Shown in pieces: positions 17,039-27,548 of a stretch of DNA of 64,000 nt. Positions within the stretch are counted from its first letter, which is position 1. Each line of letters starts with the position of its first letter. Source of the stretch: Bacteroidales bacterium (lineage in GTDB: Bacteria; Bacteroidota; Bacteroidia; Bacteroidales; Bacteroidaceae); NCBI GenBank assembly GCA_029218405.1, contig JAQXRG010000055.1, forward strand, positions 1 through 64,000, in the 5' to 3' direction. A program made the translations under genes and the position numbers. The notes under the pieces were generated by a model. That model did no database searches. It was not told the DNA's origin and worked only from the letters and a program-made list of their open reading frames with translations.

Positions 17039-17767
17039 ATGTTTACGCTGTTTCTTGGGGTACTCCTACTGACCATCGCCGCCAGCTTCATCCAGCGGGT
17101 AAGCGGCTTCGGGTTCGGCATCTTCGTGATGATGTTCTTCCCGTTTTTCCTGCCCACGTATGGCGAGTCGGTCATGCTGTCGGGACTGCTGGCAGGCACT
17201 ACCGCCCTGCTGGTCGCCCTCCGCCACCGCCAGGACATCCGCTGGGACGTGATGGGATGGGTAACGCTGCTCAACTTGTCGGTGTCTGCCGTATCCGTCG
17301 CCTACATGGCCTCCTGGAGCAACGAGCTGCTAAAACGTTGTCTCGGCGGCTTCCTCATCCTCATCGGCCTCTATTTCCTGTTCGGATCCGGACTGTCCCG
17401 CCTGAGCTTCCGGTCGAGGACATCGCAGTGCCTCGTCGGAGCCGTTAGCGGCCTCATGGGCGGCATGTTCGCCATGCCGGGTCCTGCGGTCGTTATCTTC
17501 TGCATCCGCTCCCTCCCCGACAAGCGGCAGTACATGGCCACCATGCAGGCCTTCTCGGTGGTCTTCAACGTGTTCTACACCTTTGTCCGTGCCCGGGCCG
17601 GCTTCTGGTCCGACCTCACCCTTCCCCTGTGGGGCATCGGCCTGCTGGGGGTCGTGGCCGGTTCATGGGTCGGCGCCCGCTGCTTCGAGCGCATCAGCTC
17701 CGCCAGCCTGAAACGGATGGTGTATCTCCTGATGCTGGCCAGCGGGGCGGTGGCCTTAGTGGGATAA
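17039..17767 (+). CDS. TauE/SafE-family (TSUP) membrane exporter
   Basis: 242 aa from the ATG (MFTLFLGVLLLTIAAS); the tracked ORF begins at an upstream TTG, MRRM. Seven to eight hydrophobic helices with the two family repeats: SFIQRVSGFGFGIFVMMFFPFFL near the N-terminus and GAVSGLMGGMFAMPGPAVVIFC in the middle. TSUP proteins move small organic or sulfur anions (sulfite, sulfoacetate, organosulfonates) across the inner membrane. Nothing nearby identifies the substrate. It has its own promoter and stands alone between divergent DUF3256 and the susC promoter. Confidence 0.85.
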   Translation: MFTLFLGVLLLTIAASFIQRVSGFGFGIFVMMFFPFFLPTYGESVMLSGLLAGTTALLVALRHRQDIRWDVMGWVTLLNLSVSAVSVAYMASWSNELLKRCLGGFLILIGLYFLFGSGLSRLSFRSRTSQCLVGAVSGLMGGMFAMPGPAVVIFCIRSLPDKRQYMATMQAFSVVFNVFYTFVRARAGFWSDLTLPLWGIGLLGVVAGSWVGARCFERISSASLKRMVYLLMLASGAVALVG

Positions 17768-17801
17768 ATGTCGCCTGTTTCCAACTATTTTTCTTTTTTT
17801 A

Positions 17802-17831
17802 TTGTCAGTTCAGAAAAGTTGTATAACTTTG
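17802..17831 (+). promoter_or_regulatory. susC promoter
   Basis: TTG, 19-base spacer, TAACTTTG; consensus, followed by a leader of about 95 bases before the susC ATG. Confidence 0.75.
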
Positions 17832-17932
17832 CATTGGAAGATAAGGAAACGGTTTTCCTTCTGCTGCTCCTGTAAGAGCCGTAGGGAAACTTACGCCTTA
17901 CTCCTTTATTAATAATCTTAATACACTTTTTT

Positions 17933-20900
17933 ATGTTAAAGCGATTCAAATCTGTTGGCTTGCTGTTAGCAATGGGGGGGGGTATTTCAATAATACCCAA
18001 TCCTTTATCAGCAGCCGAAGTGGCCTCGGCCATCGTCCAGCAAACCGGGACTTGTAAGGGTATAGTTAAAGACGCGACCGGTGAGGCCATCATCGGGGCT
18101 TCTGTACTCGTGAAAGGTTCAACAAACGGTACCATCACTGACTTTGACGGTAATTTCGAGTTGAGTGATGTAAAAAAAGGAAGTGTTTTAGTCATCTCCT
18201 ACATCGGATATGTGACCCAAGAGGTCAAATATACCGGACAGCCCATCCAAGTCAGCCTGAAGGAAGACAACATGAACCTGGAAGAAGTGGTTGTCGTAGG
18301 TTACGGTACCCAGAAAAAGACCAACCTGACCGGCTCGGTGGCCAATGTAAACAACAAACTCATCGAGAGCCGTCCCATCACTTCCGTTTCCGCCGGTCTG
18401 CAGGGCCTGCTGCCGGGTGTGACAGTCACCCAGCGAAGCGGACAGCCGGGTTCGGACAATGGTACTATCCGTGTACGCGGTACAGGTACATTCAACGTGG
18501 CCGACCCGATGGTGATTGTCGATGGAGTGGAATCGACCATGAACGACATCGATGCCAATGACATCGAGTCCATCTCCGTGCTGAAGGACGCGGCGTCTTC
18601 GGCCATCTACGGCTCGAAAGCCGCCAACGGTGTCATTCTGATTACCACCAAGCGCGGTAAGGCCGGCCAAAGCGTAGTCAACTACTCCGGCATGTTTGGC
18701 TGGCAGTCAGCTACTGAACTTCCGGAATACTGTACGTCAGCCGAATACGCTAAGCTGACCAACCGTGCGTTGCAGAACAACGGCTACTCTCCCCGCTACA
18801 CTGAGGAGGAAATCCAAAAGTTTGCCAACGGCTCAGACCCGTACAACTACCCCAATACCAACTGGCAGGATTTGCTGTACACCGAATCGGGATTCCAGAC
18901 CCAGCACAACATCAGCGTGAACGGTGGAACGGAAGCCATGCGCTACATGGCCTCGGTCGGCTACCAAGGACAGGATGGTATCATCCGTAACGCGTCGAAA
19001 GACCAGTACAACATGCGACTGAACCTCGACGGAAAGCCCAAGAGCTTCCTGGAGACCTCTTTCAGCCTGTCGTACACCCGGATTGACTTGACGGAACCCA
19101 ACAACCCCTACACAGGTGCCGACCTCGGCCAGTTCTTCCGTCAGGTAAACATGATTTCCCCCATGGTACCTTATAAAAAAGAAGATGGTTCCTATGGCAC
19201 CATCGGTGACGGTAACCCCATCGCCTGGCTGGACAACAACTCTACCACCAACCGTATCCGTCACAACTTGCAAGCCATCGGGTCGGTCAAGCTGATTCTC
19301 TTGCCACAATTGTCGGTGAAAGCGATGGGCTCCTACAAGTTCTACTACGAGGATTTCCACGCAATGGTGAAATGCCTGAAGTTCACGGACACCTGGACAC
19401 AGGGCTCAATGGACAAGCTCACCGAACGCGACACGCACTACGACCGGGTGACGGGTGACATCATCGCTGAGTACAAGGACAGTTTCGGATCGCACAACCT
19501 GCAAGTGATGGGAGGCTACCATGCCGAACTCTACAAGTACAAGACCACCCAGGCCTATCGCCAGAACTTCCCGAGCAACCAGCTCACCGACCTGAATGCC
19601 GGCGGTACCGCCAACATGAGCAACTCAGGCTACAGCCGCGAGCTGGCCATGCTGTCATGGTTCGGACGTGTGAACTATGACTTCGCCGGCAAGTACCTGT
19701 TGGAAGCCAACCTGCGTTATGACGGAACCTCCCGTTTTGCCCGCGGCAACCGTTGGGGCACATTCCCTTCAGTCTCTGCCGGCTGGAGAATCTCCGAAGA
19801 AAGTTTCTTCGAACCGATGAAGGACATTGTGAACAGCGCCAAGCTGCGTGCCTCATGGGGTAAGCTGGGCAACCAGGATATCGGTCAGGGCTACTATCCC
19901 ACCGTATCCACATTGACGTTGGGCAAGAACTACCCCTTCGGCGGAGCCATCCAGTCGGGTGCCTACACGCAGTACGCAGCCAACCAAGCCCTGCAGTGGG
20001 AAGGTACCACGACATGGGGCATCGGTCTCGACTTCACGCTGTGGAACCGCTTGAACGTGACGATGGACTACTATAACAAGACCACAGACGGCGTGCTGAT
20101 GGCCGTATCTACCCCCGTGACCTACGCCCTGCAGAGCTATTACGACAATGTGGGCAAGGTCAACAACAAAGGTTTCGAGCTGGCGCTTGACTACCGCGAC
20201 CGCTTCGGAGATGTTGAGTTCAACGCAGGAGCCAACATCGCCTTCAACAAGAACAAGATCCAGTCGATGGGCGAAGTGAGCGAACAGATCAACGGCGGCG
20301 ACGGTTACACCTACATCATGCGTGAAGGGGAAGCGATGAACAGCTTCTACGGCTACGAGTCCGCCGGCCTCTTCCAGTCGTGGGACGACATCAAGAGCTG
20401 GCCGGGCATCAAGGATCTTGGCAACGGACAGTACGCTTACGCTTTCAACACAGGCTACAAGGTACAGCCGGGCGACATCAAGTACGTTGACCAGGACAAG
20501 GACGGCCAAGTGACCACCGCCGACCGCAAGGTGCTGGGTTCTTGGGATCCGGGCATCACCTTCGGTTTCAACTTAGGCGCCAACTACAAGGGTTGGGACA
20601 TCATGGCCTTCTTCCAGGGGGCTACGGACGTGAAAGGCTACCTCGGCATTGAAGCTGTGGGATCCATCGACGGTAATGCAGCCAAACCTGCCAAACTGTG
20701 GTTAGACAGCTGGACCGAAGACAATAAGGGCGCGAAGTATCCGCGTGTCACCACCACCCTCTATGGCGTGAGCATGCCGAACACCTGCTCCGACTTCTGG
20801 ATGCAGGACGCCACTTATCTCCGCCTGAAAAACCTGCAGGTAGGTTACACATTCCCGAAAGCCTGGACCAGCAAGCTGGGAATCTCCAAGCTGAGAGTGT

Positions 20901-21031
20901 ACTACTCCGGACAGAACATCCTGACCTTTACGGGCTTCCTGAAAGGATGGGATCCCGAAGCGCCGGCTGGCCGAGGCAACTACTACCCGCAGACACAAGT
21001 TCATTCGTTCGGTCTGAACCTGACTTTCTAA
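17933..21031 (+). CDS. SusC/RagA-family TonB-dependent outer-membrane transporter
   Basis: 1,032 aa. Signal sequence MLKRFKSVGLLLAMGGGIS..., then a CarboxypepD_reg-like domain (GIVKDATGEAIIGASVLVKGSTNGTITDFDGNFELS), TonB box plus plug (LEEVVVVGYGTQKKTNLTGSVANVN, VRGTGTFNVADPMVIVDG), and a 22-strand barrel ending GLNLTF. Paired with susD 25 bases downstream; together they form a lidded porin importing oligosaccharides or peptides. No STN domain, anti-sigma factor or hybrid two-component regulator is present, and no glycoside hydrolase follows, so the substrate is unknown. Nine consecutive G's (17974-17982) at codons 14-17 could make expression phase-variable by slippage. Confidence 0.96.
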   Translation: MLKRFKSVGLLLAMGGGISIIPNPLSAAEVASAIVQQTGTCKGIVKDATGEAIIGASVLVKGSTNGTITDFDGNFELSDVKKGSVLVISYIGYVTQEVKYTGQPIQVSLKEDNMNLEEVVVVGYGTQKKTNLTGSVANVNNKLIESRPITSVSAGLQGLLPGVTVTQRSGQPGSDNGTIRVRGTGTFNVADPMVIVDGVESTMNDIDANDIESISVLKDAASSAIYGSKAANGVILITTKRGKAGQSVVNYSGMFGWQSATELPEYCTSAEYAKLTNRALQNNGYSPRYTEEEIQKFANGSDPYNYPNTNWQDLLYTESGFQTQHNISVNGGTEAMRYMASVGYQGQDGIIRNASKDQYNMRLNLDGKPKSFLETSFSLSYTRIDLTEPNNPYTGADLGQFFRQVNMISPMVPYKKEDGSYGTIGDGNPIAWLDNNSTTNRIRHNLQAIGSVKLILLPQLSVKAMGSYKFYYEDFHAMVKCLKFTDTWTQGSMDKLTERDTHYDRVTGDIIAEYKDSFGSHNLQVMGGYHAELYKYKTTQAYRQNFPSNQLTDLNAGGTANMSNSGYSRELAMLSWFGRVNYDFAGKYLLEANLRYDGTSRFARGNRWGTFPSVSAGWRISEESFFEPMKDIVNSAKLRASWGKLGNQDIGQGYYPTVSTLTLGKNYPFGGAIQSGAYTQYAANQALQWEGTTTWGIGLDFTLWNRLNVTMDYYNKTTDGVLMAVSTPVTYALQSYYDNVGKVNNKGFELALDYRDRFGDVEFNAGANIAFNKNKIQSMGEVSEQINGGDGYTYIMREGEAMNSFYGYESAGLFQSWDDIKSWPGIKDLGNGQYAYAFNTGYKVQPGDIKYVDQDKDGQVTTADRKVLGSWDPGITFGFNLGANYKGWDIMAFFQGATDVKGYLGIEAVGSIDGNAAKPAKLWLDSWTEDNKGAKYPRVTTTLYGVSMPNTCSDFWMQDATYLRLKNLQVGYTFPKAWTSKLGISKLRVYYSGQNILTFTGFLKGWDPEAPAGRGNYYPQTQVHSFGLNLTF
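17974..17998 (+). repeat. G9 homopolymer with adjoining hairpin in susC signal-sequence codons
   Basis: A run of nine G's from the last base of codon 14. Its last three G's open a perfect 7-bp hairpin GGGTATT-TCAAT-AATACCC. Gain or loss of one G would shift the susC frame before the signal-peptide cleavage site. Confidence 0.8.
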
Positions 21032-21056: not shown

Positions 21057-22667
21057 ATGAAAAAGTTTTTAAAATATTGCTTGCTTTTAGCAGTTCCGGC
21101 AGCCTTGTCTAGCTGCTCTGAAGATTTCTTGGATAGAGCTCCGGGCGACGCCCTGTCTCCCGCCACGTTCTGGAAGACAGAAGCGGATGCCGACCTGGCG
21201 TTGACGGGCTGCTACCGTCAGAATGCCAGCCCGTACCGTATTGAGGAAATGTGGTATTGGGACTGCACCTCCGACAATCAGTACAACTTCCATACGCACG
21301 AAGGCTACCGCTGCATCGGCAACGGCACCATGGCTCCGTCGGGTGTCAGCATCGTCAACTACTTCAATTTTCTGGGTATCCGCACGTTCAATGAATACCT
21401 GAAAATGGAGAACACCATCGAGTTCTCGTCCGAGGCCAAACGCGAACAGTACCGCGCGGAAGTACGCACCCTGCGGGCCATGCAGTACTTCTGGAAGGTG
21501 ATGTGCTATGGCGACTTCCCCTTCACGGAAGACGTGTTCGCCTCTATCGAGGAATCCATGGTTCCACGCACGCCGAAAGAAGAAATCCTAGCGTTCGTGA
21601 AGAAAGAGCTGAGTGAAAGCATCAACGCGTTGCCCAAGACCGCTGTGGCCGGACGACTGACCCGTGGAGCCGCACAGGCATTCCTTGCCCGCGTGAGCCT
21701 CATCACCGGCGACTATGCACAAGCCGCCACCACGGCACAAGCCATCATGACGGAAGGCAGCTACTCCATGCCCGACCTCTCTTATGAGGAGTCGTTCCTG
21801 AAGGCCAACCAGTACAACTCGGAAGTCATCTTCACCACCGAGCACAACAAGGCAGGCGGCTACAGCATGTGGTTCGGCCCCTATATCTCCAATGGTTACG
21901 GCGGCTGGTCATCCATCGTTCCGACCCAGAGCCTCGTGGATGCTTACGAGACCAAGAACGGTCTGACCATTGATGAAGACCCGGCGTATGACAAGACCAA
22001 TCCGTATGTGAACCGTGACCCGCGCCTGCGTGCCACTATCCTGTATCCCGGACAAGCCTATGGCATTTACGAAGGCAGCGGATTCCCTTCCATCGTACCG
22101 GGCAGCGGCGACTACGGACCCGATGCCAACAACTGTACGCATACGGGCTACAACTTCAAGAAGTTCTACAGCGACTTGAGCGAGTATGACAATGACCCCT
22201 GGGATGCTGAGCGCAACTTCCCCGTGCTCCGCTACGCCGAAGTGCTGCTGACCTATGCGGAAGCCAAAATCGAGCAGAACCAGATAGACAATTCCGTTTA
22301 CGCGGCCATCAACCAGGTGCGCCACCGTGCCGGAATGCCGGATGTCGATGAAGCCAAATACAACAACCAGGCCAAACTGCGCGAACTGGTGCGTCGCGAA
22401 CGCCGCGTAGAGCTGGCGTATGAAGGGCTGCGCCGTTGGGACATCCTGCGCTGGGGAATCGCCAATGAGGTCATGAACCAGCCTGTAACCCGTCCGGAAG
22501 GCCAACTGCTGACCACGAAGAACGCGGAGGGTGACTTCAATGTGAACATCACCGGTTCTACCATTGAAGAAAACCGTACGTTCACCGTTGGCAAACACGA
22601 GGTGCTTCCCATCCCGCAGAGCGCCATCGACGCCAACCCGAACCTGAAACAGAACGACAACTACTAA
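21057..22667 (+). CDS. SusD/RagB-family outer-membrane lipoprotein
   Basis: 536 aa. Lipoprotein signal MKKFLKYCLLLAVPAALSSC with Cys20 acylated, followed by the acidic SEDFLDRAP typical of surface-exported Bacteroidota lipoproteins. The body has SusD-like TPR helices (ATFWKTEADADLALTGCYR, LRAMQYFWKVMCYGDFPF) and the C-terminal family block EVLLTYAEAKIEQNQ...INQVRHRAGMPDV...ELVRRERRVELAYEGLRRWDILRW. It acts as the substrate-binding lid of the SusC barrel encoded just upstream. The last gene in the transcript; a hairpin follows. Confidence 0.96.
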   Translation: MKKFLKYCLLLAVPAALSSCSEDFLDRAPGDALSPATFWKTEADADLALTGCYRQNASPYRIEEMWYWDCTSDNQYNFHTHEGYRCIGNGTMAPSGVSIVNYFNFLGIRTFNEYLKMENTIEFSSEAKREQYRAEVRTLRAMQYFWKVMCYGDFPFTEDVFASIEESMVPRTPKEEILAFVKKELSESINALPKTAVAGRLTRGAAQAFLARVSLITGDYAQAATTAQAIMTEGSYSMPDLSYEESFLKANQYNSEVIFTTEHNKAGGYSMWFGPYISNGYGGWSSIVPTQSLVDAYETKNGLTIDEDPAYDKTNPYVNRDPRLRATILYPGQAYGIYEGSGFPSIVPGSGDYGPDANNCTHTGYNFKKFYSDLSEYDNDPWDAERNFPVLRYAEVLLTYAEAKIEQNQIDNSVYAAINQVRHRAGMPDVDEAKYNNQAKLRELVRRERRVELAYEGLRRWDILRWGIANEVMNQPVTRPEGQLLTTKNAEGDFNVNITGSTIEENRTFTVGKHEVLPIPQSAIDANPNLKQNDNY

Positions 22668-27387: not shown

Positions 27388-27548
27388 CTCTCTAAAATGT
27401 TCTATTCAAGTAGGTTCATCGGATTTACCCCCCCCATCACCCTTCACGTCTCATCCACACATAAGGAAATCCTTCTTTATGTTTTCCCTACAAATTTACG
27501 GAAAAACGTCCACTCAGCCAACACTTTTCAGAAAATTTCACCTTCCGA

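Follow-up and report, generated by a model that had tools for sequence, protein, structure and literature searches.

A G9 tract in the signal-sequence codons of a Bacteroidales susC gene is a likely site of slipped-strand phase variation

The outer membrane of gut Bacteroidota is rich in transporters formed by SusC/SusD pairs, which determine the glycans that these bacteria can use and are also immune targets. One such pair is encoded in the window, the 64-kb stretch of Bacteroidales DNA analyzed here, which belongs to a draft genome of 2.71 Mb with 83% completeness. The susC/ragA gene (17933–21031, + strand) was identified from its open reading frame and from Pfam and NCBIfam matches, and it encodes a TonB-linked outer-membrane transporter of 1032 aa with CarbopepD_reg_2, Plug and TonB_dep_Rec domains (Pfam), matching NCBIfam TIGR04056 at 1015 bits as well as TIGR04057. 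Downstream lies susD (21057–22667, + strand; Pfam SusD_RagB and SusD-like_3), encoding the surface glycan-binding lipoprotein partner of 536 aa. All the characters of a SusC/RagA member were found in this gene, namely a CarboxypepD-like domain, a plug, a β-barrel, the SusC signature and a downstream susD. A TauE-family permease (Pfam) is encoded upstream, and no glycan-degrading gene was identified adjoining the susC/susD pair. The sequence TAACTTTG (17824–17831, + strand) resembles the Bacteroides -7 element TAnnTTTG and, together with TTG at 17802–17804, was taken by eye to be the probable susC promoter, of a type that lies outside the range of the sigma-70 promoter scan. Residues 1–29 of the protein, MLKRFKSVGLLLAMGGGISIIPNPLSAAE, were assigned by eye as the signal sequence.

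A homopolymer of nine G residues (17974–17982, + strand; AT-G9-TATT) was located within these signal-sequence codons by pattern search. The gene begins ATG TTA AAG CGA TTC AAA TCT GTT GGC TTG CTG TTA and continues GCA ATG GGG GGG GGT ATT, and the tract therefore covers the last base of codon 14, all of codons 15–16 and two bases of codon 17, as the initial annotation had described in placing it within the first 17 codons. Poly-G/C contingency loci are known from Campylobacter jejuni, Neisseria meningitidis, Helicobacter pylori and Bordetella pertussis. Such loci are recognized by a homopolymer of about 8 or more units in a coding region or promoter, in which a change of one unit shifts the frame and turns the gene OFF, and both properties were found for the susC G9, the second by computation. 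When lengths from G7 to G11 were tested, G9 was in frame (ON) and predicted the full-length protein, whereas G8 and G10 predicted peptides of 19 and 41 aa, respectively.

Whether such a tract exceeds chance depends on what is counted. On the + strand of the window, no other G run exceeds G6, and extrapolation from G-run lengths gave about 0.03 expected runs of G9 or longer on this strand, or about 0.2 for C runs. With both strands counted, runs of at least eight Gs number ten in the 2.71-Mb draft and those of at least nine number six, a total of long runs no greater than that extrapolated from the G- and C-run lengths of the window, and in dinucleotide shuffles the expected number of G7 words even exceeded that observed. 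The idea that G9 is rare by length alone was thus rejected, since genome-wide counts of G runs are not above extrapolation. Nor did the genus stand out for very long G runs: of 399 family genomes, 93 contain runs of at least 12 Gs, some of these runs at contig ends as possible sequencing artefacts. Position gave a different result. Two of the six G9+ runs of the draft belong to paralogous susC genes, on contigs C55 (the window) and C103, and sit at the same codon of their signal sequences. Across 61 genomes of the genus, SusC signal-sequence codons contain five G9+ runs where no more than 0.39 were expected (P of about 6e-5, a guide only, as genes of shared ancestry were treated as independent). 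The expectation assumed at most 323 G9+ runs in the 61 genomes, an overestimate in which overlapping words are counted, and about 40 SusC genes per genome with a 100-bp zone each. What exceeds chance is therefore the position of the tract and not its length.

These counts bear on a neutral origin of the tract, in which the glycines of an MGGGI peptide have come to be written GGG GGG GGT by synonymous drift, the run then slipping at the background rate with no regulatory role, the signal sequence needing small hydrophobic residues and the OFF copies of relatives being recent loss-of-function mutations. The agreement between the genome-wide number of long G runs and extrapolation is in keeping with such an origin, as is the occurrence of long G runs at many non-SusC sites across the family. 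GGG accounts for 15.7% of glycine codons in eight window genes, and at this local frequency MGGG with two GGG codons is expected in about 2.5% of cases, which speaks for a contingency site.

Comparison with orthologs, based on one genome per species, gave results of two kinds. The second susC of the same genome, on contig C103 (MLKQFKSVGTVLLMGGGILL...), has G9 at the same codon as the window gene, in frame and ON. Its locus is syntenic, with the same gene order, with a locus of the nearest species (G013, contig C114), with identities of 96% for SusC (over 853 aa), 95.6% for SusD and 72% for the following gene. The tract of that ortholog is G8 and the gene is OFF, translation from the conserved ATG stopping after 19 residues; downstream of the tract, 998 codons are free of stops. 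The dN/dS of the susC pair was 0.044 at a dS of 0.62, and that of SusD was 0.042. The C114 gene is thus best read as the OFF allele of a maintained gene, and its OFF state would be recent or reversible, because a long-dead gene would have decayed, whereas this frame is open and its dN/dS is as low as 0.044. Tract length accordingly differs between these orthologs, with G9 ON in one and G8 OFF in the other.

The syntenic ortholog of the window gene itself, on contig C110 of the same species (SusC 89% and SusD 91% identical), reads ATG GGA GGG GGC ATT at the tract site, so that the glycines are kept, the run is interrupted and the gene is ON. The dN/dS of this pair was 0.067, indicating purifying selection, and the C110 gene appears to be locked ON in that species. 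In the initial annotation, relatives that keep the gene and lack the tract were regarded as evidence against slippage; exactly this was seen in the only close ortholog (GGA GGG GGC), and it counts against slippage at the window gene. Retention of the MGGGI peptide and not of the run also favors the neutral origin. Phase-locked alleles are normal at contingency loci, and gain or loss of a tract is commonplace there. A SusC 89% identical to that of the window is also present in a record of Phocaeicola plebeius (L049), which agrees with G013 at the tract site, and for these two reasons the host genus is probably Phocaeicola.

The last three Gs of the tract are shared with a perfect 7-bp hairpin (17980–17998, + strand; GGGTATT/AATACCC, 5-nt loop TCAAT), found by a repeat scan. 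The initial annotation had correctly noted this hairpin and had proposed that it may promote slippage or affect translation; neither role was supported, as 40 perfect 7-bp hairpins with loops of 3–8 nt occur in the 64-kb window and sequence comparison showed the stem to be absent from the C103 paralog and from both G013 genes. Control by the hairpin, with the stem stalling replication or hiding the translation-initiation sequence, is scarcely credible: the stem is real and folds at about -8.7 kcal/mol, but such stems are found every 1.6 kb in the window, this one is conserved in neither the paralog nor either relative, and it lies more than 45 nt downstream of the start codon. It was therefore rejected as a functional part on frequency and non-conservation and is regarded as incidental.

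Around the promoter and N-terminus of the window susC (17300–18300), only short, chance-like inverted repeats were found, and an invertible promoter or invertase-switched susC was rejected for want of suitable repeats in this interval. Elsewhere in the genus, SusC N-termini occur as pairs or arrays of opposite orientation whose signal-sequence DNA is nearly identical, an arrangement resembling invertible SusC shufflons (G015:C1:935261-937252, G015:C45:85705-87758, G002:C1:2903217-2905270, G063:C1:4615832-4646102 and G011:C1:798071-815916).

Tracts at the corresponding position were sought in other susC genes as runs of G8 or longer about 50–110 bp before the conserved SusC motif GE..[VI]IGA, and reversed-pattern controls of this search gave no cases. 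Three further distant susC lineages of the genus carry G8 to G14 at the tract position, two of them OFF by one frame step. In the first, G034 has G14 and is OFF and G014 has G8 and is ON, with a matching neighborhood and flanking proteins 67–82% identical. In the second, G026 has G12 and is OFF, its tract lying outside the search range and having been met among the long G runs of the genus, and G171, from a different genus, is ON with G9. Two more genes are ON, a susC of G010 with G9 and a susC of G043, of another family, with G10. Within the pairs G034/G014 and G026/G171, SusC identity is about 48–49% and the run lies at the corresponding codon, and the SusC groups are about 30–42% identical to one another and to the window protein. 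In total, nine tract-bearing susC genes were obtained, 6 ON and 3 OFF; they were picked for carrying G8+ runs, and the frequency of tract loss is not derivable from them. In all three OFF genes, the downstream frame is open for 997–1086 codons. Runs of 12–14 may be miscounted in draft assemblies, G8 or G9 less readily. Tract-bearing susC genes are rare: of 399 family genomes in a sampled search, 4 had such genes, as did 1 of some 290 others from the order; no relative was found in viral contigs.

These lineages speak against the neutral origin of the tract on two counts: three of nine tract-bearing genes are OFF solely at the tract, beyond which some 1000 codons are clean, and at least four distant SusC lineages (pairs 42–49% identical, others about 30%) have the tract at equivalent codons, above the positional expectation. 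We consider a neutral homopolymer rather unlikely. RNA polymerase slippage or ribosomal frameshifting offers another reading, in which every DNA length would yield some full-length SusC and the tract would act as a rheostat and not as a switch. Homopolymers can provoke reiterative transcription, and leaky expression would also explain purifying selection on OFF genes; however, such slippage is best known for A/T runs and reversible switching explains the purifying selection equally well, which leaves a rheostat very improbable.

Other G runs were recorded in a survey of runs of G10 or longer in the genus, a convenience sample. Many are intergenic, some just upstream of reading frames, and others lie inside or beside frames of surface function, including a family-2 glycosyltransferase (L201), hexapeptide transferases (L200, L205) and a weak acyltransferase-3 match (L199); these may fit a broader poly-G repertoire. 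Two SusC genes are interrupted deeper in the protein, in the CarboxypepD region (L167:1474, G11) and in the plug region (L151:1548, G13). In the window, a G8 (27428–27435, - strand) precedes the start of a minus-strand ADP-ribosylglycohydrolase-like ORF by 40 nt, in a 5'-leader or promoter position. In the same genome, a 166-aa ORF that matches no Pfam family and lacks homologs in the 61 genomes of the genus has a G10 among its first 20 codons, in frame (C129:17437-17446; L185:3438); an eight-C run on the coding strand (C65:13207-13214; L186:4208) lies in the signal codons of an 800-aa lipoprotein-like gene, a potential frame switch with no close ortholog in the genus; and a G9/C9 (C95:56087-56095; L188:4088) separates a glycosyltransferase from a sugar transferase in an exopolysaccharide locus. 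At L158, L160 and L009, intergenic G runs are followed by a TA-rich Bacteroides -7-like sequence, as in a promoter spacer, where run length could tune transcription. G005, G364 and G177 have unusually many long G runs per genome, possibly artefacts or mutator-like expansion.

Compared with the known homopolymer contingency loci, the susC gene is alike in that a G/C run lies early in the coding region of a surface-related gene and one-base changes toggle the frame and, across the SusC tract group, in the occurrence of ON and OFF alleles whose downstream frames are intact. It differs in being a Bacteroidota SusC nutrient transporter with a fairly short G9, for which switching is deduced from sequence. 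To our knowledge, variation in gut Bacteroidales has been investigated almost exclusively as DNA inversion, and the programs that find invertons are blind to one-base slippage. For Bacteroides fragilis, two reviews (PMC11868660, PMC12632263) cite Nakayama-Imaohji 2009 for the switching of SusC/SusD by a site-specific invertase. That system concerns the same protein family and stochastic on/off expression but acts by recombinase-mediated DNA inversion, and the window gene is without such flanking inverted repeats. Bacteroides is mentioned only for inversion-based switching in the passages retrieved from the 2025 phase-variation review (PMC11868660), and the 2025 Bacteroidales review treats phase variation via DNA inversion, the words slipped and homopolymer being absent (PMC12632263). 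In a capsule gene of B. fragilis YCH46, a frameshift arose from one additional C in a four-C run and replicative slippage was proposed (PMC3090145); this is likewise proposed slippage in a Bacteroides surface locus, but in a polysaccharide locus with four Cs, and neither in SusC nor in a long homopolymer. No report of SusC slippage was found in the open-access papers searched, in which SusC phase variation proceeds by DNA inversion; absence from these papers does not prove poly-G switching of SusC to be new.

Considering all the above results, we propose, with a probability of about two in three, that the G9 of the window susC is a simple-sequence contingency site switched by slippage. Slipped-strand mispairing at replication would add or remove one G in the tract and shift the susC frame inside the signal sequence; G9 (or G6, G12) would give the full transporter, and G8 or G10 would give a peptide of 19 or 41 residues. 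A minority of cells would then be without this SusC on the surface until a further slip restored expression, and such switching could alter nutrient uptake, phage sensitivity or immune recognition. The slippage first suggested in the initial annotation is supported by the frame logic, by the C103 G9/ON and C114 G8/OFF alleles and by the other SusC lineages, and is weakened by the broken run of the window ortholog. The putative slipped-strand ON/OFF switching of SusC is well supported by these allele comparisons in the group as a whole, and for the window gene itself it is likely; that slippage causes the length changes, and that it is frequent, reversible, selected and acting at the window gene, is what we infer from them. 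Because the C103/C114 alleles and unrelated lineages show both ON and OFF lengths, slippage would be a route beside inversion, as had been anticipated. More tentatively, and at somewhat less than even odds, we suggest that signal-codon poly-G slippage is a recurrent, selected SusC ON/OFF system of this genus, probably Phocaeicola, beside invertases, and that it perhaps extends to surface-polysaccharide genes, since more G10+ runs adjoin glycosyltransferase, acyltransferase and hexapeptide-transferase frames. If SusC is indeed switched by poly-G runs, an overlooked layer of heterogeneity could be sought immediately in metagenomic reads that already exist, and SusC genes annotated as pseudogenes may be OFF-phase genes.
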